This document shows positions 7,366 through 21,141 of a DNA stretch of 64,000 nt, one piece after another. This stretch comes from Tumebacillus algifaecis. GTDB lineage: Bacteria > Bacillota > Bacilli > Tumebacillales > Tumebacillaceae. How positions within the stretch are numbered: the first letter of the stretch is position 1; each line of letters opens with the position of its first letter. Position numbers and translations under genes: made by a program. Location of the stretch: the NCBI RefSeq assembly GCF_002243515.1, contig NZ_CP022657.1, positions 3,187,001-3,251,000 of the forward strand, read 5' to 3'. The notes under the pieces were generated by a model. The model did no database searches. It saw nothing but the letters and a program-made list of their open reading frames with translations, and was not told the DNA's origin.

Positions 7366-7656
7366 TCAACCAAATTTGTACGTGATGCCATGACCGCCTT
7401 TTGGGTAGACCCACTCGATGTTGTAGTCTGGGCAACCGATGCGGCACGTACCGCACTCAATGCAGTTTTCAAAAGCTACGTGCGTGGTCAAGTCTGCCCA
7501 GGAATACACGTCGGCCGGGCAGAAGTCGTTGCATTCTTTGGTCTCACATTTGACGCACACCTGTTGATCTTTGATGATCAAGTGTGAGATGTCGTCCACT
7601 TTATAGCGAATCGTATAGAGCTTTTCCTCGATCGTTGAACCTTTGTTCTCACTCAT
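7366..7656 (-). CDS. fixX: Ferredoxin-like protein FixX
   Basis: A 96-aa protein with two cysteine clusters, CVKCETKECNDFCP and CIECGTCRIGCP, of the FixX/ETF-QO ferredoxin type. It passes electrons from FixC and FixAB. The ATG at 7656 overlaps the fixC stop (ATGA), with GGAGGG upstream, so translation is coupled to fixC. It is the last gene of fixABCX. Confidence 0.95.
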   Translation of the reverse strand: MSENKGSTIEEKLYTIRYKVDDISHLIIKDQQVCVKCETKECNDFCPADVYSWADLTTHVAFENCIECGTCRIGCPDYNIEWVYPKGGHGITYKFG

Positions 7657-8954
7657 CCGTTGATCGCCCTCCATCCCTTCCAGCCCAGTTTGACAAGATC
7701 CCATGTGCCGCCGGCCGTCTGTTTGATCTGGTTGATCGCATAGCGTTGTTTTTCCGCTTTGCTCTTTCCATCGACCTTGAGCATCTCAAAAGCGGCAGCG
7801 TTGAGCGCCCGCGGGAGGTCGGAGAAGAGCAATTTGGGATCGATCTCATTGAGCAGACCGTGCAAACCTTGATATTTCTTGAGGTCTTTGCGGATAAACG
7901 AAGCGGCCACTTGGCGGTCGTACAGCGACAAGGCGGATTTTGAATAGTCGCCTTTTTCTTTCGCCCCGATGATCGCTTCACCAGCCAATCGCCCGGAGGT
8001 CATCGCGAGGTTGGTCCCTTCCCGATGGACGAAGTTGATCAGTTGCGCCGCGTCGCCGCAGACGACCCAGCCATCGCCAGACAGCTGCGGCACCGCATGC
8101 AAACCGCCTTCCGGAATCAGGTGCCCTGCATACTCCTTCGTTTCTCCACCCTGTATCAGTTTACGAATGGCCGGGTGCTTTTTGACCTCTTCGAGCAGAT
8201 GATAGGGCTTGACCCTGCTTTTTTTCAGGTCTGACACCATCACGCCGATGCCAAGCGAGATCGATTCCTTGTTGGTGTACAGAAAACCAAGACCGGTCAT
8301 GCCAAGCGATGTTTCCCCGGCAAACTCGATCGTCGCCCCTTCATCGCCTTCCAGCCCAAAACGGTCTAGAATCTTTTCTTTCGGCAAAAAAATCTGCTCT
8401 TTCACGGCCAGTGACACTTGATCGGGCGCCCACTCCTTGTGAATGCCAAGCGATTTGCCAAGCAGCGAGTTGACCCCATCGGCGATGACGACCACATCCG
8501 CATAGAGGTCGCCATCCTCGCGATCGGTGCGAACACCGACCACTTTGTTGCCTTCGCGGATCAATTCCAGCGCGACCGTTTCGTAGACGGGCAAGGCACC
8601 CGCTTCTACCGCTTTGTTGGCAAACCACTGATCAAATTTCACCCGCATCCCTGTCCAGCAGTTCGCAGGATCTTTAAATCCTTCATTTCTGTGCCCGAGC
8701 TTGGTCACCGCTTCTTGACCCATGATCCATAAGTTCTGTTCGATTATTTTGCGCTCCAGCGGCGCTTCCTTCCAGAACTCTGGCACGATGTCCTCCAACT
8801 GCTTGCGATAGATCACACCGCCAAAGACGTTTTTCGAACCGGGGAACTCCCCTCGCTCCAACAGCACGACCGACAGCCCTGCACGCGCCATCGTCAGAGC
8901 TGCGGCGGCTCCTGCCGGACCAGCGCCGACGACGACTGCATCAAATTTTTCCAT
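7653..8954 (-). CDS. fixC: Flavoprotein dehydrogenase FixC
   Basis: A 433-aa FAD-dependent protein of the ETF-quinone oxidoreductase family. The dinucleotide-binding motif VVVGAGPAGAAAA is at residues 7-19, VVIADGVNS is mid-protein and GDAAQLI binds FAD near the C-terminal half. In FixABCX complexes it holds the FAD that reduces menaquinone, while the bifurcating FAD sits in FixAB. It is the third gene of the operon, 14 bases after fixB. Confidence 0.95.
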   Translation of the reverse strand: MEKFDAVVVGAGPAGAAAALTMARAGLSVVLLERGEFPGSKNVFGGVIYRKQLEDIVPEFWKEAPLERKIIEQNLWIMGQEAVTKLGHRNEGFKDPANCWTGMRVKFDQWFANKAVEAGALPVYETVALELIREGNKVVGVRTDREDGDLYADVVVIADGVNSLLGKSLGIHKEWAPDQVSLAVKEQIFLPKEKILDRFGLEGDEGATIEFAGETSLGMTGLGFLYTNKESISLGIGVMVSDLKKSRVKPYHLLEEVKKHPAIRKLIQGGETKEYAGHLIPEGGLHAVPQLSGDGWVVCGDAAQLINFVHREGTNLAMTSGRLAGEAIIGAKEKGDYSKSALSLYDRQVAASFIRKDLKKYQGLHGLLNEIDPKLLFSDLPRALNAAAFEMLKVDGKSKAEKQRYAINQIKQTAGGTWDLVKLGWKGWRAING

Positions 8955-8968
8955 GTCCTCTTCTCCTC

Positions 8969-10066
8969 CTAGTCGACGACCTCTTGCGGAATTGGCTCTT
9001 GGGCTGATGCAGTCGATTGTGCCGCCCGCTTTGCTTTGATCGCCTCGGTCAACGCCGGAACGATCTTGAACAGATCGCCTACGATTGCGAAATTGGCCAC
9101 TTTAAAGATCGGCGCATCTGGATCACGGTTGATCGCGAGGATGCAGTCTGAGTTTTGCATGCCGACCAGATGTTGCACAGCTCCGGAGATCCCGACAGCA
9201 AGGTAGAGTTTCGGGCGTACCGTGTAACCTGTCTGTCCGACTTGATGGGCGTGCCCGATCCAGCCCGCATCGACTGCAGCGCGTGATGCTCCGACCACAC
9301 CGCCCAGCGCATCGGCCAGCTCTTGGAGCAGTTGAAACGAATCGGGCCCGCCAAGGCCGCGGCCCCCTGCGACGATGATCTCCGCTTCTTCGAGGTCAAA
9401 ACGCTCCGTCGCCTCGATGAATTGCAGCACCTGCGCGTCAATTTCCTCTTCTGCCATCAGCGATGGTACGGAGTGAATCTCGCCTTGGCGCGTCGGATCA
9501 TACGGTGCGGCTTCAAACACACCAGCGCGGGCGGTCGCCATCTGTGGGCGATACTGCTTGCACAGGATTGTCGCTAACATCTTCTCAGAAAAAGCGGGGC
9601 GGGACGCTAGCAAGAGACGACTCGGGTGCGGTTCCACGTCAAGGATGGTGCAGTCGGCGGTGAGTCCGGTCGGCAAATGCGTGGCAATCGCGCCTGCTAA
9701 GTCACGGCCCGTCGCCGTCGCTCCAAAGAGCACGATCTCCGGTTTGACCTCGCGAATCACCTGAAGTGCCACCCGTGAGTACGGTCTGGTTCGGTAGTCT
9801 TTCAACTCCGGAGCATCGGCGATGTACACGCGATCTGCTCCGTATGCGATCGCGTCCTTAGCCAAATTGTCCACATCGTGGCCGATGACAAGAGCGATCA
9901 GATCGACTTCCAATTTGTCGGCCAGTTTCCGTCCCTCACCAAGCAATTGCCAAGAAACGCTTTTCGCGTGACCGGCCCGCTGTTCGACAAAGATCATCAC
10001 ACCGCGATAGGCCGACCAGTCGGGCATATCGTCAGGCACGTTCTGCTTTTTGTTCTCTGCTGCCAT
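8969..10066 (-). CDS. fixB: Electron transfer flavoprotein alpha subunit FixB
   Basis: A 365-aa EtfA-type protein. The N-terminal Rossmann-like half (GVMIFVEQRAGHA) is followed by the FAD-binding C-terminal domain, with IVAGGRGLGG, GQTGYTVRPKLYLAVGISGA and LAINRDPDAPIF all intact. It has an extended N-terminus and an Ala/Gln-rich tail. With FixA it forms the NADH-oxidising, bifurcating heterodimer. Confidence 0.95.
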   Translation of the reverse strand: MAAENKKQNVPDDMPDWSAYRGVMIFVEQRAGHAKSVSWQLLGEGRKLADKLEVDLIALVIGHDVDNLAKDAIAYGADRVYIADAPELKDYRTRPYSRVALQVIREVKPEIVLFGATATGRDLAGAIATHLPTGLTADCTILDVEPHPSRLLLASRPAFSEKMLATILCKQYRPQMATARAGVFEAAPYDPTRQGEIHSVPSLMAEEEIDAQVLQFIEATERFDLEEAEIIVAGGRGLGGPDSFQLLQELADALGGVVGASRAAVDAGWIGHAHQVGQTGYTVRPKLYLAVGISGAVQHLVGMQNSDCILAINRDPDAPIFKVANFAIVGDLFKIVPALTEAIKAKRAAQSTASAQEPIPQEVVD

Positions 10067-10087
10067 TTTGATAACACCTCCCTTTGA

Positions 10088-10921
10088 TTACCATCCGAAG
10101 CGGGTCGGCAGTTCCGTTTCCCAAAGCTTCTCGAGCGCAGCACCTGCCACCGCTTCTGGCGTATCGCCTTCCAGAAATGCGGTGTTGACCTGTTTCGATG
10201 CGGGAACCCACGTTTTGGCCACGATCGTCGGGGACCCTTTCAGACCGATCTTGCTTCGGTCCAGTTCCGGAAAGTCTTGGGTTGTCCAAATCACCGGCTT
10301 GAATTGTGCGGCGCGAATCATACCTGGTAGCGGCGCGCGACGCACTTTGTTCAATTCTTTGAGCGCCGTGATCAAAACGGGCATCTTGGTCTGCACCACC
10401 TCGACCCCGTCCTCGAGCAGGCGCTGGACGGTGATGCGCCGCTTGTCCACGTCGATATGTTCCACTTTCGACACGTAGGTCAACTGCTCCAAGTCGAGAC
10501 GGCAGGCAATGCCCGGACCCACTTGTCCTGTATCGCCATCGAGCGTTTGCTTGCCGCAGAACACGATGTCTACCGGACCGAACACGGCGGACACTTTCTG
10601 AATCGTCAGACCCAGCACATATGATGTGGCGAGCGTGTCCGCACCTGCAAAACCGCGGTCGGTGACGAGAACTGCGCCGTCAGCACCAAGCGAGATGCAT
10701 TGTTTCAATGACTTCTCCGCAGGCGGAGGTCCCATGCAGACCACCGTGATTTTAGCGCCCACCGTCTCTTTGATGCGCAGCGCCTCTTCCAATCCATGCA
10801 GATCATAAAAATTCGCAATCGCCGGAACCCCGTCGCGAATCAGCGTATTCGTCTTTGGGTCGATGCGAATCTCCCGGGAGTCCGGCACTTGTTTAACACA
10901 GACCACGATATGTAGCATCAT
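10088..10921 (-). CDS. fixA: Electron transfer flavoprotein beta subunit FixA
   Basis: A 277-aa EtfB-type protein with an adenine-nucleotide-binding fold. The family signature is visible: VCVKQVPDSREIRID at the start, and CGKQTLDGDTGQVGPGIA mid-protein. It is first in fixABCX, with AGGGGG before tandem ATGs (10921 and 10918). No nif genes are in the window. The complex probably couples NADH oxidation to menaquinone and ferredoxin reduction; the use of the reduced ferredoxin is not apparent. Confidence 0.95.
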   Translation of the reverse strand: MMLHIVVCVKQVPDSREIRIDPKTNTLIRDGVPAIANFYDLHGLEEALRIKETVGAKITVVCMGPPPAEKSLKQCISLGADGAVLVTDRGFAGADTLATSYVLGLTIQKVSAVFGPVDIVFCGKQTLDGDTGQVGPGIACRLDLEQLTYVSKVEHIDVDKRRITVQRLLEDGVEVVQTKMPVLITALKELNKVRRAPLPGMIRAAQFKPVIWTTQDFPELDRSKIGLKGSPTIVAKTWVPASKQVNTAFLEGDTPEAVAGAALEKLWETELPTRFGW

Positions 10922-10995
10922 GACTTCCCCCTAAGCGTTTGTCCTATTTCGATACATATGAACAATCCGCAGGATGTATGAAAGAAAAAAGATAT

Positions 10996-11010
10996 GTTAG
11001 ATAATCTAAC
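10996..11010. promoter_or_regulatory. Perfect 15-nt inverted repeat, candidate operator
   Basis: GTTAGATAATCTAAC has two 7-bp arms around a central A. It lies 75 bases upstream of the fixA start, in the 243-bp AT-rich space between the divergent fixA and RRNPP regulator genes. Its size and symmetry suit a dimeric repressor or activator site. Which protein binds is unknown. Confidence 0.5.
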
Positions 11011-11106
11011 GTATTACATTTATATTGGTCATATTTTGTAACTGAACCTTATTGCGTGAAGATGCTATTAATTTGATTTAAATTTATAACTGAATCTCTC
11101 TTTCGT

Positions 11107-11129
11107 TTGCATAATTATTCTTATATAAT
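11107..11129 (+). promoter_or_regulatory. Probable sigma-A promoter of the RRNPP regulator
   Basis: A perfect TATAAT is at 11124-11129, 35 bases before the regulator ATG, with the sequence upstream AT-rich. The -35 element 17 bases further up is weak, which would suit a regulated promoter. Confidence 0.5.
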
Positions 11130-11164
11130 GGGAGTCAGAAAGCGATAGACACGGGAGGAAACAT

Positions 11165-12448
11165 ATGGAATCTCTTGGCCGGAAGATCAGGCAGAGGCGT
11201 CAGGAAAAAGGACTGACCCAGAGCCAACTCGCCGAAGGTTTGGTTAGCGCCAGCGCGATCTCGCAGATTGAAGCGGACAAGATCAACCCGTCCTACAAGC
11301 TCCTCCTCCAGATTGCGGAACGTCTTGAGGTTCCGCTCGACTATTTTCTGACCGAGACAGGGGAGTATCTGGAGCAGGCCACTTCCCATAAGCTTGCCAA
11401 AACGTTCATCATGGCAAAAGAATATTCGAATGCCGTGCCGATCTTAGACAATTTACTCGCAACAGGGGCCGGTGATGAACTCGACCTGATGATGGATTTA
11501 TCGACTTGTTTTATTCATTTGGATAATTTATCTACAGTCAAAGAGCTATTGGAAAAGGCTATGACGATGTCACTAAAAGCGGACGATCATCGCGCACATG
11601 TATGGTCGTTGCATCGGCTGGGTCTTGTCTACTATAAGCAACACAACATCTCATTGGCGATGCACTATTGGCAGCGAGCCTATGATTCATTGCTCGAGAT
11701 GGGAGTAGACGATTCGTTTCTCAAGGCAGAGATCACGACCAACCTCGCAATCACCTACAACCGCTTAGGCCATTACGACCAATCAACCCACCTGTTTCTC
11801 AATTCACAAGACCTGTTAAAAAATTCATCCAACCTCTATCACCTAGCTACCAACTACCTTGGTCTAGGTTTGTCACTGTATGGAAAGAAGGAATACCAAC
11901 AGGCCCAAGAATATTGGCAGGAAGCGGTCACCCTCTTCAAAAGTCTCGACCACATTCACTATTCGATTCAGGTCAAAGAAAACTTCGGCATCTTACGCGG
12001 AGAGCTTGGCGACTATGCAGCAGCACTCGAAATTCTCCAAGAGTGTCTCCGACAATATCAAGAGCTCGGCTCGGACAAACAGTTGTCCAACACTCATGCA
12101 GAGATCGCCAAAGTGTTGCTTCGCTTGGAACGAGACGAAGAGGCGGCAGAACATGTTGAACACGCTTTTGCACTTTGTGAGCCGAACTCGATGTATCACG
12201 CTCAGTGCTATAATGTCCGCTCACTTTTACATGCCTACCGTCAGGAAAACGAAGCGGCGATTGAAGCGGCCTTGCTTGGGGCGGAAGTTTTCCGCACTCT
12301 CGATATGGTGCACGATTATCACAAGATGAGACTGCATGTCAGCGACTTATTCAAAAAGTTGGGAGATTATAAATCTTCTACTGAAATTCTGGAAGAAACC
12401 CAACAGTATATACAACATTTCTTCAAAGAAAAGGGGATCTTATTATGA
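11165..12448 (+). CDS. HTH-TPR transcriptional regulator, RRNPP-type peptide sensor
   Basis: A 427-aa protein. Residues 1-62 form an XRE-type helix-turn-helix (IRQRRQEKGLTQSQLAEG, SASAISQIEADKINPS, AERLEVPLDYFL). From about residue 70 to the end there is a chain of tetratricopeptide repeats, such as RLGLVYYKQHNISLAMHYW and YLGLGLSLYGKKEYQQAQ. This is the plan of PlcR, NprR and related RRNPP proteins, which bind re-imported oligopeptides in the TPR pocket. GGAGG precedes the ATG. Its stop overlaps the start of the next gene (ATGA), which encodes a secreted repeat peptide, very likely its cognate signal. Targets are unknown; the divergent fixABCX operon is a candidate. Confidence 0.9.
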   Translation: MESLGRKIRQRRQEKGLTQSQLAEGLVSASAISQIEADKINPSYKLLLQIAERLEVPLDYFLTETGEYLEQATSHKLAKTFIMAKEYSNAVPILDNLLATGAGDELDLMMDLSTCFIHLDNLSTVKELLEKAMTMSLKADDHRAHVWSLHRLGLVYYKQHNISLAMHYWQRAYDSLLEMGVDDSFLKAEITTNLAITYNRLGHYDQSTHLFLNSQDLLKNSSNLYHLATNYLGLGLSLYGKKEYQQAQEYWQEAVTLFKSLDHIHYSIQVKENFGILRGELGDYAAALEILQECLRQYQELGSDKQLSNTHAEIAKVLLRLERDEEAAEHVEHAFALCEPNSMYHAQCYNVRSLLHAYRQENEAAIEAALLGAEVFRTLDMVHDYHKMRLHVSDLFKKLGDYKSSTEILEETQQYIQHFFKEKGILL

Positions 12449-12723
12449 AAAAAGTAATGCTTTCCGCAATCCTGTTTGCATCGATCGTAACGGTAGGGTT
12501 TGGCCTCGACGCAAAAGAAAATGCCTTCATCAACGGTGGCGAGCCGCTCTCTCCGAAATTCGCTTTCATCAACGGTGGCGAGCCACTCTCTCCGAAGTTC
12601 GCTTTCATCAACGGTGGCGAGCCGCTCTCCCCGAAGTTCGCTTTCATCAACGGCGGTGAACCGCTTTCTCCGAAGTTCGCTTTCATCAACGGCGGTGAAC
12701 CGCTTTCTCCGAAAAAAGCGTAA
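12445..12723 (+). CDS. Secreted five-repeat signalling peptide precursor
   Basis: A 92-aa precursor. Residues 1-20 are a Sec signal peptide (MKKVMLSAILFA then a hydrophobic core ending GFG). After a short LDAKEN spacer, residues 27-90 hold five head-to-tail copies of AFINGGEPLSPKF; the last copy ends KKA. There is no other domain. It is translationally coupled to the regulator by a 4-base ATGA overlap, and a terminator follows. Regulator-then-exported-peptide is the usual RRNPP cassette order. The mature peptide probably arises by protease cutting near the K-F-A junctions and would be re-imported by an oligopeptide permease; both steps are inference. Confidence 0.88.
   Translation: MKKVMLSAILFASIVTVGFGLDAKENAFINGGEPLSPKFAFINGGEPLSPKFAFINGGEPLSPKFAFINGGEPLSPKFAFINGGEPLSPKKA
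12523..12714 (+). repeat. Five in-frame 39-bp tandem repeats
   Basis: The units encode the same 13 residues, with the last copy partial at its end. They differ only at synonymous third positions (GGT-GGC-GAG versus GGC-GGT-GAA, CTC versus CTT, CCG versus CCA, AAA versus AAG). Units 1-3 and units 4-5 form two sub-types, suggesting stepwise duplication. Confidence 0.95.
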
Positions 12724-12739
12724 CGAATACTCCAAAGTC

Positions 12740-12769
12740 AAAAGCCGCTTCGATTACGAAGCGGCTTTT
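12740..12769. terminator. Bidirectional terminator
   Basis: A 13-bp perfect stem (AAAAGCCGCTTCG) with loop ATTA is followed by T on plus and by TTTT on minus. It ends the regulator-peptide transcript; the stop codon of the converging minus-strand gene lies in its loop. Confidence 0.92.
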
Positions 12770-14468: not shown

Positions 14469-16598
14469 CTACCCTAAATTTTCCGTTTGATCATAATGTG
14501 CGCGTGAGCTGTCGATGCGTTCAAAAATGTGAGGTTCCTCCTCACGAGACTGCATGTGGATCAACGTGATGTCACAGGTGACCGTAAGATCTGAAGGGGG
14601 AAAGGGATGGGCCGCGAACGCATCATGAATGCGGGCTTGCACCACATCGATCTCACTACGGCTGCACCCTTTGATGATCACAAGGAACTCATCGTCCAAA
14701 TAGCGACAGATCATATCATCGGTGCGCATCGTCCGCTTCAAGACAAACGAAGCATCCACCAACACCTCATTGCCCCGCTCAAACCCATAGCGCTCATTGA
14801 TTCGCCGCATCCCACGAATGTCGATAAGCAAAAAGAAGATCGGGAAATGTTTCTCCTGCTCACACAACGAGCGCAATTTGCGGCGCAGATAATGGGTCGT
14901 ATGCAATCCCGTCAAATGATCCACGAACAGACGATGATCATATTCGGCTTTGTACACAGCAATCCGGTTACGCCCCATCTCTTTGGCCCCCCAATAGAGC
15001 GCCTGATCCGCTTTTTCCAGCAAGTCGCTAGGAGAGAGCGCATCATGGTCCTGCAGATGTGCGATACCGCCTGAGATCGTGATGTTCTTGACGGTGTGTT
15101 CCTGATAGACGAATTGGTGACTCTCAATCTTTTGACGCACCGCTTCAGCAAGTAGCTCTGCCGCGGTCGTTCCCATCCGACCGATCGCCACAAATTCCTC
15201 TCCGCCATAGCGGGCCAGCAGAACATCGAACGGCTCCATCACCATTCTGATCACCTTTGCCACCTGCCGCAGTACCTCATCACCTACCATGTGACCGTAG
15301 ATGTCGTTGTACTTCTTAAAATGATCGATGTCAAAAATAAACAGACACAGATTCTCCTCCTGCTGCTTCGTCACGAGAAAGCGATGGTTCAGTTGGTCGT
15401 AAAAATATTGGTAGTTATAAAGCCCGGTCAGTTTGTTCGTCACCGCTGCCCGCTCCAACTCCTCATACATATGATTCCGATCAAGAATGATTGAGACTTG
15501 ACTGGCCAAAAAGCGCAGTTGGTCCCGATGCGCTTTGCGAAACCCATGTGTACTGAGCTTCCACAAACAAAGGATGCCAAACACTTTCGATTGCCCGGCC
15601 AGCGGGATTAACATCATCGACCGTGCCTCGATACCCTGAATATTAAATTCACTTTTGCGAACATCGTTGATGATTTGGACTGCACCGGACGCTGATGTCA
15701 ACTGCAAGAGCGGATGACCATTCAGTTCCACCATCTTGCCATCGCGGTCCACTCCGCGATAGCTACCGTCTGCCTGCAACTCCAACAGCAATCCATTAGG
15801 CGAATCGGTAAATTCCTGCGCCATCTGGAACGTCTTTTGATAGATCAAAGACAATTCTTTGGTACTCGCTACTTCCCAACAGGTCTGGTTGATGCGATTC
15901 GCCCACTGCAACCGATTGAATGAACGGATCATGTAGGTCAAAATTGCTACCGGCACCATCAGAATCACAAGCGTCCAAACTGCAGTGAACGGCTCGATCA
16001 CAAGACCCAATATCGCCAGAGGAAGAACGACCAAATAGACGAGTGCCTCCCAACGCAACGCATCAAAACAGGACTTGCGATTGAAGTGCGACGTTCGGAA
16101 AAAGAGCATCAAGTTGATGATCAGATGATTGATCAAGAAGAAGGAAGCCCCCACTGTAAACAACTTTATCACCGCATAGCCGGTGCTCTCCTGCCCCTCG
16201 AACATCCATGCTGCTACAAACGAAAACGCGGCATAGCCAGCAGCTAAGCAGACCACCTTGATCGCAGGATTGAGCAAAATGGCCATCTTCCGCGTCCCGC
16301 GCAACAGCAACAGTGAGGCGATCAACTCGCCAAAAAAATTGATCCACAAAGTTGTCGCCGTATCAAAGGCCAGCACCAGATAAAACGTAAACACAAGTTC
16401 CAAGCTGACCAGCATCGACGGTAGCGTGACCGGAAACAATACGGTCAATGCGATCAGCGGAACTGCGATCAGCAGCACCAGCCAAAAATCTGTGGTCAGC
16501 TCAAGCGGATGTTGAAACAGGAAATACAAGGCTACCCCGATCAACAAAAATTCCATTACTTTACTGCTTAGCCGCCACCATTTCCCGCTACTCATCAC
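14469..16598 (-). CDS. Membrane GAF-GGDEF-GGDEF diguanylate cyclase
   Basis: A 709-aa protein. Residues 15-225 contain about seven membrane helices (sensor-type). Residues 245-375 look like a GAF domain. The first GGDEF domain (385-550) has an intact GGEEF at 465-469 and FDIDHFKKYND, so it should make cyclic di-GMP; no RxxD inhibitory site is seen just upstream. A second GGDEF domain (555-700) is degenerate, with LDDEF at 634-638 and LIDIRGMRRIN, and probably has a regulatory role. It is followed by a terminator and looks monocistronic. Confidence 0.92.
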   Translation of the reverse strand: MMSSGKWWRLSSKVMEFLLIGVALYFLFQHPLELTTDFWLVLLIAVPLIALTVLFPVTLPSMLVSLELVFTFYLVLAFDTATTLWINFFGELIASLLLLRGTRKMAILLNPAIKVVCLAAGYAAFSFVAAWMFEGQESTGYAVIKLFTVGASFFLINHLIINLMLFFRTSHFNRKSCFDALRWEALVYLVVLPLAILGLVIEPFTAVWTLVILMVPVAILTYMIRSFNRLQWANRINQTCWEVASTKELSLIYQKTFQMAQEFTDSPNGLLLELQADGSYRGVDRDGKMVELNGHPLLQLTSASGAVQIINDVRKSEFNIQGIEARSMMLIPLAGQSKVFGILCLWKLSTHGFRKAHRDQLRFLASQVSIILDRNHMYEELERAAVTNKLTGLYNYQYFYDQLNHRFLVTKQQEENLCLFIFDIDHFKKYNDIYGHMVGDEVLRQVAKVIRMVMEPFDVLLARYGGEEFVAIGRMGTTAAELLAEAVRQKIESHQFVYQEHTVKNITISGGIAHLQDHDALSPSDLLEKADQALYWGAKEMGRNRIAVYKAEYDHRLFVDHLTGLHTTHYLRRKLRSLCEQEKHFPIFFLLIDIRGMRRINERYGFERGNEVLVDASFVLKRTMRTDDMICRYLDDEFLVIIKGCSRSEIDVVQARIHDAFAAHPFPPSDLTVTCDITLIHMQSREEEPHIFERIDSSRAHYDQTENLG

Positions 16599-17106: not shown

Positions 17107-18756
17107 TTAGTTTTTGCCTTCGATCCAGGTGTACTTGAGATCGTAGTCCGGACCAAAGGTACGCGGAGTCCAGCCCTTGACGTACGGACGGGATACGCGA
17201 GCAACCGCGCGGTGTACGATCGGGCCGATCGGCATATCTTCCATGATGATCTTCTCTGCATCGTACAGGTAACCCATACGTTTTTTCGGATCCGGCTCAG
17301 CTTGAGCTTTTTTGATCAGATCGTCATATTTGGTGTTGGAGTAGCCGCTCTCGTTGAAGTCACCATCGGTGATCCACATGTCGAGGAAGGTCATCGGGTC
17401 GTTGTAGTCAGCGCCCCAGAAGGAGAATACGATGTCGAAGTCGCCTTGTTGCGAACGTTGCAGACGCAGTTTGAACGGAACGTTCTCGATTTCTACATCG
17501 ACGCCCAGAGCTGTACGCCATTGTTCCTTGATGAACTCACCAGATTTCTTGGAGGTATCACCATCGTCCATCAACAGTTTGATGGTCGGCATTTTATCCA
17601 GACCAACTTCTTTCAAACCTTCTGCCAGCAGTTCTTTCGCTTTCGGAGCGGAGTTTTTGCGGTCGATCAGGTCGCCGTTGTCCTTACGGAACTCGCCGCC
17701 TTCACCGTTGGAAGTTCCCGGCGGTACGAGACCAGTTGCGCCGATGGAACCGTTGTGGTAGATGATATCTGCCCAAGTATCGCCATCGATGGTCGTGGTC
17801 AGAGCACGACGGATCTTAGCGTTGTTCAGAGCTTTTACTTTCTTTTGGTTAAATTGCAGGTAACCTACAGACAAATCTGCTTGAGTGGAGTACTCAGCGG
17901 TATCTTTATAACGATCCACTTGGTCACGTACGAGGGAGAAGCGGTCGATTTGACCAGCCAGGTACAAGTTTTCCAGAGCGGAGGAGTCTTTTACGATTTG
18001 GTAGTTAACGGTATCGAGTTTTACGTTTGCTGCATCCCAGTATTTCGGGTTTTTCTTCATGACTGCAGATTGCTCATGCACCCACTCGGTCAGTGCGAAC
18101 GGACCGTTGTACAGAGCTCTGTCAACCTCAGCGCCGAATTTGTCGCCTTGTTGTTCAACGAAAGCTTGTTTTTGCGGGAAGAACAGCGGGAACGCCAATT
18201 GCTCCAAGAAGAACGGAATCGGGTTCACAAGTTTGATTTCCAGAGTCTTTGCGTCGATCGATTTTACCGCTACATCGTCAGCAGTACCTTTGCCACCGTT
18301 GTATTCAGCGCCGCCTTTGATCCAAGTCATCATGAACGAGTACTGCGAAGCAGTTTCCGGGTTCAGGGTGCGCTTGAAAGAGTATTCAAAGTCTTGCGCG
18401 GTTACGTTCGAGTCATCAGACCACTTTGCGCCGTCACGCAGTGTGAAAGTATAGGTCAGCCCATCTGGGGAGATATTCCACTTTTCAGCAACGCCACCGA
18501 CAGCTACGCCATCTTTGTCAAGGCGGATAAGACCTTCGTTAGTTTGACCGAGAACGGTGAAACCGATGACGTCAGTTGCCAAGGACGGGTCAAGGGACGG
18601 AATTTCAGAAGTCATGTACAGGTTGAGTTCCTGTGCTTCTGTAGTAGTACCGCCTTTTTCGCCACCTTTTTCTTCTTTATCACCGCAACCAACAAGAGCT
18701 ACGGAAGACAGCATTGTTACTGCCAGGCCAAGACCAACCCACTTTTTCGTGTTCAT
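17107..18756 (-). CDS. Oligopeptide-binding lipoprotein OppA-1
   Basis: A 549-aa solute-binding protein of the SBP_bac_5/OppA family. The lipobox LVGC sits at the end of the signal peptide (MNTKKWVGLGLAVTML start), followed by a Gly/Glu/Lys linker. The family signature region is YTFTLRDGAKWSDDSNVTAQDF with LNPETASQYSF. It captures peptides outside the membrane for an Opp-type permease, which is not encoded here. The start at 18756 is set by the signal peptide. A perfect Spo0A box lies 113 bases upstream. It is a close paralogue of OppA-2 at 19306. Confidence 0.93.
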   Translation of the reverse strand: MNTKKWVGLGLAVTMLSSVALVGCGDKEEKGGEKGGTTTEAQELNLYMTSEIPSLDPSLATDVIGFTVLGQTNEGLIRLDKDGVAVGGVAEKWNISPDGLTYTFTLRDGAKWSDDSNVTAQDFEYSFKRTLNPETASQYSFMMTWIKGGAEYNGGKGTADDVAVKSIDAKTLEIKLVNPIPFFLEQLAFPLFFPQKQAFVEQQGDKFGAEVDRALYNGPFALTEWVHEQSAVMKKNPKYWDAANVKLDTVNYQIVKDSSALENLYLAGQIDRFSLVRDQVDRYKDTAEYSTQADLSVGYLQFNQKKVKALNNAKIRRALTTTIDGDTWADIIYHNGSIGATGLVPPGTSNGEGGEFRKDNGDLIDRKNSAPKAKELLAEGLKEVGLDKMPTIKLLMDDGDTSKKSGEFIKEQWRTALGVDVEIENVPFKLRLQRSQQGDFDIVFSFWGADYNDPMTFLDMWITDGDFNESGYSNTKYDDLIKKAQAEPDPKKRMGYLYDAEKIIMEDMPIGPIVHRAVARVSRPYVKGWTPRTFGPDYDLKYTWIEGKN

Positions 18757-18868
18757 CTCGTAAAACCCCCATTTCGTAATCTTCCCAGTCACAAAAAGCG
18801 CTGAGGACTTTTCTTTGTCTAAATAGATAGACAATTTTGTTATCTGTATTTGTTGATAATATAGCATG

Positions 18869-18877
18869 TTTCGACAA
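18869..18877 (-). promoter_or_regulatory. Candidate Spo0A box upstream of oppA-1
   Basis: TTGTCGAAA on the minus strand is a perfect match to the 0A-box core. It lies in the AT-rich promoter region of oppA-1. Confidence 0.5.
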
Positions 18878-19045
18878 GCAAAGCAATAGCTTAAAAAATT
18901 CTTTAGCTCTGTTAAAGTTAGCAAATAAGCTAAATCTAACACCTTTGCTACTTGTCTACAGAATATGTTACAAGTCCAAGAAAAAGACCTGAATGAAAAA
19001 CATTGTTACTGGCAGATGCTAAACCGAGAAAGGAGTGGTGTAGCG

Positions 19046-19305: not shown

Positions 19306-20943
19306 CTATTTCTTGCCTTCTACATACGTGTCGATGAGATCGTAGTCCGGACCGAAGGACAGGATGCGGAAGTCCTTCACGTACGGCTTCATGACGAACG
19401 CACGGCCACGGAAAGTCAGCGGCCCGATCGGCATTTCCTTCATCAAAAGCTTTTCAGCGTCGTAGAGGTAGTTCATGCGCTTCTTCGGATCGGTTTCCAG
19501 TTGCGCCTTTTTGATGAATTCATCGTACTCTTTGTTCGACCATTTCGGATCGTTGAAGTCACCGTCGGTGATGAACATATCAAGGAAGGTCATCGGGTCG
19601 TTATAGTCAGCGCCCCACAGGGAGATAACCATATCGAAGTCATGCCCGTGCGATTTTTCCAGACGCAGTTTGTACGGTACGTTTTCAACTTCTACGTCAA
19701 CGCCCAAGTTTTGACGGATTTGCTCTTTAACGAATTCAGCCGCTTTTTTACCAACGTCGCCGTCGTCAGCCAGCAACTTGATTTTCGGGAACTCGGTAAG
19801 GCCAACTTCTTTCAAGCCTTCTGCAAGAGTAGCTTTCGCCTTTGACACGTTGTCTTTGCGCTTGATCAGGTCGCCGACATCTTTGGTGAAGTCGCCACCT
19901 TGACCGTTCGACATCCCTTTCGGGGTGTAACCGGTCGCACCAACGGAACCGTTGTGGTAAATAACGTCAGCGTAAGCATCGCCGTCTACTGCCCAAGTGA
20001 TCGCTTGACGCACTTTTGCGGACGTGAACGCTTTTACGCGTTGGTTGTACTGCAGGTACGCGGTGACCAGCTCCGGAACGGTAGCGAATTCTGCGGAAGA
20101 CTTATAGTTGTCCACTTGGTCACGTACGAGACCAGAACGGTCAACCATACCCGATTCATACAGGTTGACAGCTGCGTTGCTATCTTTAACGACTTGGAAG
20201 TTGACTTTATCCAACTTCGTGCGTTTGTTGTTCCAGTAGGTATCGTTTCTTTCGATCACTACAGATTGTTCGTGCTCCCAAGCGGTCATTTTGAACGGAC
20301 CGTTGTACAAAGCGGTAGCTGCATCTGCACCGTATTTGTTGCCTTGAGCTTCTACGAACTTTTTGTTTTGCGGGAAGAAGGTCGGGAACGCCATTTGCTC
20401 GATGAAGAACGGGATCGGGTGATCCAACGTAACTTCGAGCGTTTTGTCGTCTTTTGCTTTTACTGCAACTTGGTCAGCAGAGCCTTTGCCGCTGTTATAT
20501 TCGGTACCGCCTTTTACCCATGCTACCATGAAGGAGTATTGGGCGCCGGTTTCCGGGTTCAGGGTGCGCTTCCAAGAATATTCGAAATCGTGAGCGGTTA
20601 CAGCGTCACCGTTCGACCACTTGGCATCGTCGCGCAGGTGAAAAGTATAGGTCAGGCCGTCTGGAGAGATTTCCCAATCTTTTGCAACGCCCGCTTCAGC
20701 CTTGCCATCTTTACCGGTGCGAACAAGACCTTCATTAACTTGTGCGAAGGTGGTGAAGGAGAGCGTGTTAGTCGCCTTCGAAATGTCCATCGTCGGAATT
20801 TCGTCGGAAAGAACCAGATTCAGTTCCTGTGCTTCTTTCTTGTTTTCCGTCTTTTCGCCGGTGGAATCATCGTTACCGCAACCAGCAGCCAAGGTAGCTA
20901 CCATCGAAGCAGCAAGACCTATTGTGAGCCATTTCTTTGCCAT
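19306..20943 (-). CDS. Oligopeptide-binding lipoprotein OppA-2
   Basis: A 545-aa OppA-family protein with lipobox LAAGC, clearly paralogous to OppA-1. Shared blocks include ISPDGLTYTF, FEYSWKRTLNPETG, ALYNGPF and GADYNDPMTFLDM. It binds peptides at the outer membrane face for import. The start at 20943 is set by the signal peptide; AGGAACG lies just before. Two OppA copies without permease genes suggest distinct ligand preferences feeding one transporter, possibly including signal peptides. Confidence 0.93.
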   Translation of the reverse strand: MAKKWLTIGLAASMVATLAAGCGNDDSTGEKTENKKEAQELNLVLSDEIPTMDISKATNTLSFTTFAQVNEGLVRTGKDGKAEAGVAKDWEISPDGLTYTFHLRDDAKWSNGDAVTAHDFEYSWKRTLNPETGAQYSFMVAWVKGGTEYNSGKGSADQVAVKAKDDKTLEVTLDHPIPFFIEQMAFPTFFPQNKKFVEAQGNKYGADAATALYNGPFKMTAWEHEQSVVIERNDTYWNNKRTKLDKVNFQVVKDSNAAVNLYESGMVDRSGLVRDQVDNYKSSAEFATVPELVTAYLQYNQRVKAFTSAKVRQAITWAVDGDAYADVIYHNGSVGATGYTPKGMSNGQGGDFTKDVGDLIKRKDNVSKAKATLAEGLKEVGLTEFPKIKLLADDGDVGKKAAEFVKEQIRQNLGVDVEVENVPYKLRLEKSHGHDFDMVISLWGADYNDPMTFLDMFITDGDFNDPKWSNKEYDEFIKKAQLETDPKKRMNYLYDAEKLLMKEMPIGPLTFRGRAFVMKPYVKDFRILSFGPDYDLIDTYVEGKK

Positions 20944-21141
20944 CGTTCCTAAACCCCCTATGTGATTTTCATGTAACAAACATGTAATTTCTCTGTAATC
21001 TTTCTGAAAATATCTCTTGCACGAATCCAATATAGCAAGCAAATGAATTTTGCGCAATACTTTTTTTTGAATATTACATCACCTGCATACAAAACAAAAA
21101 AGACCCCCCTCATCTGGGGCGCCTTTTCGTTGAAATAAATG

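Follow-up and report, generated by a model that had tools for sequence, protein, structure and literature searches.

A probable RRNPPA-type receptor gene and an adjacent precursor with five identical peptide units in Tumebacillus

We describe a two-gene locus that very probably encodes a peptide-pheromone system of the RRNPPA type, in which a receptor with an HTH and nine TPRs (NprR/Rap-like) is followed by a precursor carrying five identical peptide units. The locus lies in a 64 kb window (the whole stretch of DNA analysed here) of a 4.5 Mb genome assembled as one contig. The sequence-only reading had proposed an RRNPP-type receptor and pheromone, and this is supported by the domain composition of the receptor, by an adjacent precursor in 7/7 orthologs, by the conserved core and variable copy number of the units, and by the existence of single-copy orthologs. 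RRNPPA receptors are 250–500 aa long with peptide-binding TPRs (PMC10075063), and the receptor in the window has 427 aa, matches HTH_3 (5.2e-15) and TPR_12 (9.5e-22) in Pfam, and shows nine TPRs in its structural model. The N-terminal HTH is shared by all RRNPPA receptors except the Rap type. The adjacent exported propeptide of 10–100 aa typical of these systems has its counterpart in a 92-aa ORF, whose export is judged by hydrophobicity and an MKK start only, and with five identical 12-mers it belongs to the multi-copy propeptides, defined by at least two identical or similar units.

The gene pair and the repeat array

The features of the locus are collected in Table 1. The sequence-only reading had the regulator gene ending in an ATGA overlap with a gene for a signal peptide and repeats, and the ORF coordinates confirm this (an overlap of translational type, at 12445–12448). 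It had also counted five perfect copies of AFINGGEPLSPKF; this stands for the 12-mer AFINGGEPLSPK, which occurs five times without change, but not for the residue that follows it, which is F in 4/5 copies and is replaced by a terminal KA after the fifth. The signal peptide was recognized by the MKK start and a crude hydrophobicity score.

Table 1. Features of the pheromone locus and its surroundings (positions in the window)
Feature	Position	Strand	Details and basis
etfB-etfA-FAD oxidoreductase (fixC-like) genes, divergent	7653..10921	-	Pfam ETF, ETF_alpha and FAD families
Intergenic region between etfB and receptor, divergent	10922..11164	.	7-species alignment
Receptor/regulator gene	11165..12448	+	427 aa; ORF, Pfam, AlphaFold2 model
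Receptor domains: HTH (residues ~8-61), flexible linker (~63-70), nine TPRs (~67-422)	within 11165..12448	+	
Putative pheromone precursor gene	12445..12723	+	92 aa; MKK and hydrophobic N-terminus, then five repeats
Signal-peptide-like N-terminus MKKVMLSAILFASIVTVGFGLDA-KEN	12445..12522	+	Sequence, hydrophobic core score; cleavage site inferred
Unit 1, AFINGGEPLSPK	12523..12558	+	Unit alignment
Unit 2, AFINGGEPLSPK	12562..12597	+	Unit alignment
Unit 3, AFINGGEPLSPK	12601..12636	+	Unit alignment
Unit 4, AFINGGEPLSPK	12640..12675	+	Unit alignment
Unit 5, AFINGGEPLSPK, then KA-stop	12679..12714	+	Unit alignment
Terminator-like hairpin AAAAGCCGCTTCG-ATTA-CGAAGCGGCTTTT	12740..12769	+	RNA fold

The repetition was also detected by Tandem Repeats Finder, which is blind to reading frame and reports a 39-bp period with 4.8 copies at 12526–12713 (93% matches, score 299), the sole strong tandem array within the window. 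A degenerate pattern for the unit core gave 5 matches as opposed to 0 in 100 shuffles, and a chance repeat is ruled out by the array and the shuffle control together. When the five 36-nt units are aligned, eight nucleotide columns vary, and every one of them is a synonymous third position, an outcome with a probability of ~1.5e-5 to 1.5e-4 under the assumption that 25–33% of random changes are synonymous.

In the 7-species alignment of the upstream intergenic region, a promoter-like TATATAATG and a GGAGG are kept in most orthologs. The hairpin downstream of the precursor, a stem with a T-run, has a folding energy of -20.7 kcal/mol (z = -5.27) and is fitting for the end of a two-gene operon. 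It is absent from the output of a consensus terminator scan, the likely reason being that its T-run is paired within the stem. Elsewhere in the window, 14469–16598 (-) encodes a protein of 709 aa with a GAF domain and two GGDEF stretches, a candidate diguanylate cyclase.

Processing of the precursor may be pictured by analogy with known systems. The precursor would be exported by Sec and lose its signal peptide, extracellular proteases would cut the SPKFA linkers and thereby release several identical short peptides built on FINGGEPL, and an oligopeptide permease would re-import the peptide, which would bind the receptor at its concave TPR surface and switch its DNA binding. With extra copies, more signal would be obtained per translated chain, and a reservoir would exist for the evolution of new specificity. 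The closest tested precedent for linker cutting is Phr105, whose two identical ERPVGT units, separated by a four-residue spacer, are both released by extracellular proteases (PMC11343458). Less than 10 kb from the pheromone locus, two tandem genes at 17107–18942 (-) and 19306–21057 (-) encode proteins of the oligopeptide-binding type (SBP_bac_5), both of which are putative candidates for pheromone uptake.

The receptor and its known relatives

The AlphaFold2 model of the receptor, computed from an input that included 20 related receptors, has a pLDDT of 89.3 and a pTM of 0.76 and contains 18 TPR helices, i.e., nine TPRs. The best TM-score among RRNPPA structures is obtained with NprR (5dbk, TMq 0.61/TMt 0.72), followed by RapJ with bound peptide (4gyo, 0.60/0.70). 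The top Foldseek E-values belong to eukaryotic LGN/Pins and designed TPR proteins, above RRNPPA, and membership in this group therefore cannot be read from the fold alone. A family profile of 20 sequences scores best with PlcR (2e-20), ahead of NprR (3e-12 to 4e-12) and RapF (2e-11), and the HTH is likewise closest in sequence to that of PlcR among RRNPPA structures; by fold, the receptor is nearest to NprR and RapJ. No NCBIfam model matched the receptor above its curated cut-off. We place the receptor in RRNPPA without a subfamily, and do not assign it to NprR.

Like NprR-NprX of the Bacillus cereus group (RRNPPA clan B), the locus combines an HTH and nine TPRs with a pheromone gene directly downstream. 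It differs from that system in its weak sequence similarity to NprR and in its unrelated pheromone motif (that of NprX is SKPDIVG), and no sign of the second, sporulation-related role of NprR was seen here. The PlcR-PapR system similarly has an exported peptide encoded downstream, but PlcR has five TPRs (293-residue PDB chain), and the PapR precursor usually contains one unit. Several identical pheromone units per secreted chain are also found in the yeast alpha-factor precursor, which is an analogy only. An HTH plus nine TPRs is also the architecture of NprR, QssR and AloR (PMC12700828). The AloR-AloP systems of Paenibacillaceae, with dozens of paralogs per genome and up to 40 receptors, pair such receptors with a short downstream precursor (PMC7425212), but the mature peptide of AloP13 is SHGRGG and the TPRs of AloR are more degenerate (clan C, PMC12700828), whereas those of the window receptor score well in Pfam; this comparison was drawn from published descriptions of AloR. 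Rap-Phr systems with duplicated Phr (Phr3T, Phr105) share the nine-TPR type of receptor and the multi-unit exported precursor; unlike the present locus, they are phage-borne, Rap has no HTH and the units number two instead of five.

A viral origin of the receptor was considered and rejected, as no phage record matches it and a Foldseek search against viral models returned general TPR proteins only. A plasmid origin was also rejected; plasmid matches are distant (<60% identity) and none covers 80% of the query.

Orthologs, paralogs and their precursors

Receptor orthologs with 54–86% identity were found in six further genomes. The nearest with a species name, all of the family Alicyclobacillaceae, belong to Tumebacillus avium (86% identity), T. 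lacus, T. flagellatus and T. permanentifrigoris; in a scan of genome contigs, full-length orthologs were confined to these four named genomes and the other matches cover only part of the receptor. All seven orthologs sit at the same locus, as judged by the etfB start upstream of the receptor (the etf gene set is a conserved neighbour), and all have a secreted-looking small gene directly 3' of the receptor. The number of units is 5 in the window, 4 in T. avium, 4 in genome G001, 2 in T. lacus and 1 in the three others. The seven cores are FINGGEPL, FIHDAEPL, FIHDAEPL, LFEGPEPL, IWNNGEPL, IWNEHEPM and IFYGGDPV. Among the 15 units of the four multi-copy species, the core is invariant within each species and its nucleotide changes are all synonymous, which is partly circular because the core was picked for its conservation; the 39-bp array of the window, detected without regard to frame, is free of this circularity. 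Linkers of the multi-copy orthologs differ in both sequence and length (SPVIG, PHAPVIG, SKAPVIG, KKAPVIG). The comparison thus shows, at the level of sequence, that evolution keeps a unit core of about eight residues (FINGGEPL here) and leaves copy number and linkers free, a pattern that would be expected of a released peptide with disposable spacers.

The receptor belongs to a large set of paralogs, with about two dozen long ones in its own genome and about fifty in T. avium. Candidate pairs were collected by searching downstream of every receptor for a short ORF whose start resembles a secretion signal and curating the lists by eye, a crude procedure that yields approximate counts: ~10 pairs in the genome of the window, ~21 in T. 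avium, ~7 in T. lacus and ~11 in T. flagellatus (~49, or roughly 50). About a third of the precursors (~17/~49) have at least two units, for example SITTPI x2 (L044), YEPGIPM x2 (L108) and AVIDPADPF x3 (L159), and a core resembling Pro-x-Pro-Leu/Met is common to many precursors of the four Tumebacillus genomes. Presence of a precursor requires 4 changes on a tree of 105 receptors, compared with 24 when labels are shuffled, so the receptor-precursor pairing is inherited by lineage. Single and multiple units interchange at least six times on the tree of 27 precursor-bearing receptors.

N193, on TPR4, is Asn in 7/7 orthologs and is the receptor column most tied to a precursor (25/27 receptors with one and 19/78 without, as raw counts that ignore kinship); this tie is a lead only, drawn from the alignment. 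In RapF, Asn227 on a TPR helix (TPR4 in that paper's numbering) holds the peptide backbone (PMC3601957). N193 is not equated here with RapF Asn227 or with a PlcR site, as the TPR register is ambiguous and Asn is also a general TPR consensus residue.

Homologous regulators lacking an adjacent repeat peptide had been named in advance as evidence against an RRNPP system, and they exist in part: in these genomes an adjacent precursor is missing from most paralogous receptors, which fall into conserved ortholog groups, and three orthologs are single-copy. The RRNPP reading is not harmed by this, because RRNPPA families are known to include receptors that have no pheromone gene next to them (PMC9765709). 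Among the regulators of this kind found here are the paralogous HTH-TPR proteins at L038-L041 and L043 and their orthologs (L083-L088, L112-L116, L141-L145), conserved across the four genomes examined, which have no downstream precursor and may be eavesdroppers or respond to a different ligand.

The T. avium loci (L005, L083-L111, L170-L189) hold its roughly fifty receptor homologs and ~21 candidate pairs, numbers comparable with those published for Paenibacillus. At L186 of this species, two precursor-like ORFs stand in tandem behind the receptor, the second with two units, DLDPGPLGV / DRDGEPLGI. In a distant Bacilli genome (G025), a distantly homologous receptor is followed after 116 bp by a secreted-looking 67-aa ORF (L031:2894-3097, +) that has a good ribosome-binding site and contains four GLSHDFPD units; it represents another multi-copy precursor, of a different family.

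Alternative explanations and significance

Surface proteins often carry tandem repeats and the secretion of the precursor is inferred, and one could imagine that the repeat protein remains intact and works as a small protein of the cell wall or surface, cotranscribed by chance with a TPR regulator. We consider this very improbable because the three single-unit orthologs at the same locus are only 41–42 aa long, no wall-anchor motif was seen in the precursor, and the linkers change freely while the eight-residue core, linked to a receptor in 7/7 cases, does not. The single-copy orthologs indicate that repetition is dispensable, and a structural repeat protein was rejected on that ground. It is also very unlikely that the units are a secreted antimicrobial or effector peptide under the control of the regulator and not its own ligand. 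HTH-TPR regulators do control bacteriocin loci as well, but immunity, transporter and modification genes are absent alongside the pair, the paralogous receptors have paralogous precursors kept by lineage, and the unit resembles other candidate pheromones of the genus.

Within quorum sensing, two further explanations concern the role of the copies, and we regard each as rather unlikely. Units from several loci may take part in cross-talk and act on two or more paralogous receptors, among them those without a precursor; the similar core motif of paralogous precursors, the non-identical units in L167, L179 and L086, and the many receptors without a precursor of their own speak for it. The five identical units in the window and the four identical cores in the sister species speak against it and favour dose over diversity at this locus. 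Alternatively, the copies could be neutral products of slippage, one being sufficient, as suggested by copy numbers from 1 to 5 among orthologs and the repeated changes on the receptor tree; however, decay of extra copies would then be expected, and every copy is intact with synonymous changes only. As for the pheromone system itself, we offer as a tentative, on balance doubtful, possibility that pheromone copy number serves Tumebacillus as a gain control that can evolve, with identical units that repeatedly expand and contract and are homogenised within species. If true, this would allow the dose and the identity of the signal to change together, as a block.

The multi-copy layout is already known, and the earlier impression that no bacterial example had been characterised was mistaken. 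Identical and variable repeats were described in Phr and NprX, including in nprX genes, and compared with fungal mating pheromones (Even-Tov 2016, PMC5199041). A 2022 survey found multi-copy RRNPPA propeptides among partners of Rap, NprR, PlcR and AimR, with up to six identical copies and with repeats in 17/17 atypically large nprX genes (PMC9765709), and a 2024 study tested experimentally the maturation of the two-unit phage Phr precursors Phr3T and Phr105 (PMC11343458). What is new is the genus, the five-copy example, the 1-2-4-5 series among orthologs and the block change of the unit between sister species. Our literature search found no paper linking Tumebacillus with RRNPP systems; the RRNPP_detector survey included Alicyclobacillaceae, and its supplementary tables may therefore already contain these receptors.

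The locus adds Tumebacillus, with its rich set of receptors and pheromones, to the RRNPP systems, and the about 21 candidate pairs of T. avium would give the genus one of the larger RRNPP repertoires. With its 1, 2, 4 and 5 copies in different species, the orthologous site provides a natural series for asking whether the quorum threshold is set by copy number, as has been asked earlier for Phr. Between the window and its sister species the unit has changed across the whole array (FINGGEPL vs FIHDAEPL) while the receptors are 84–86% identical, which opens the way to a direct test of co-evolution of receptor and pheromone specificity.
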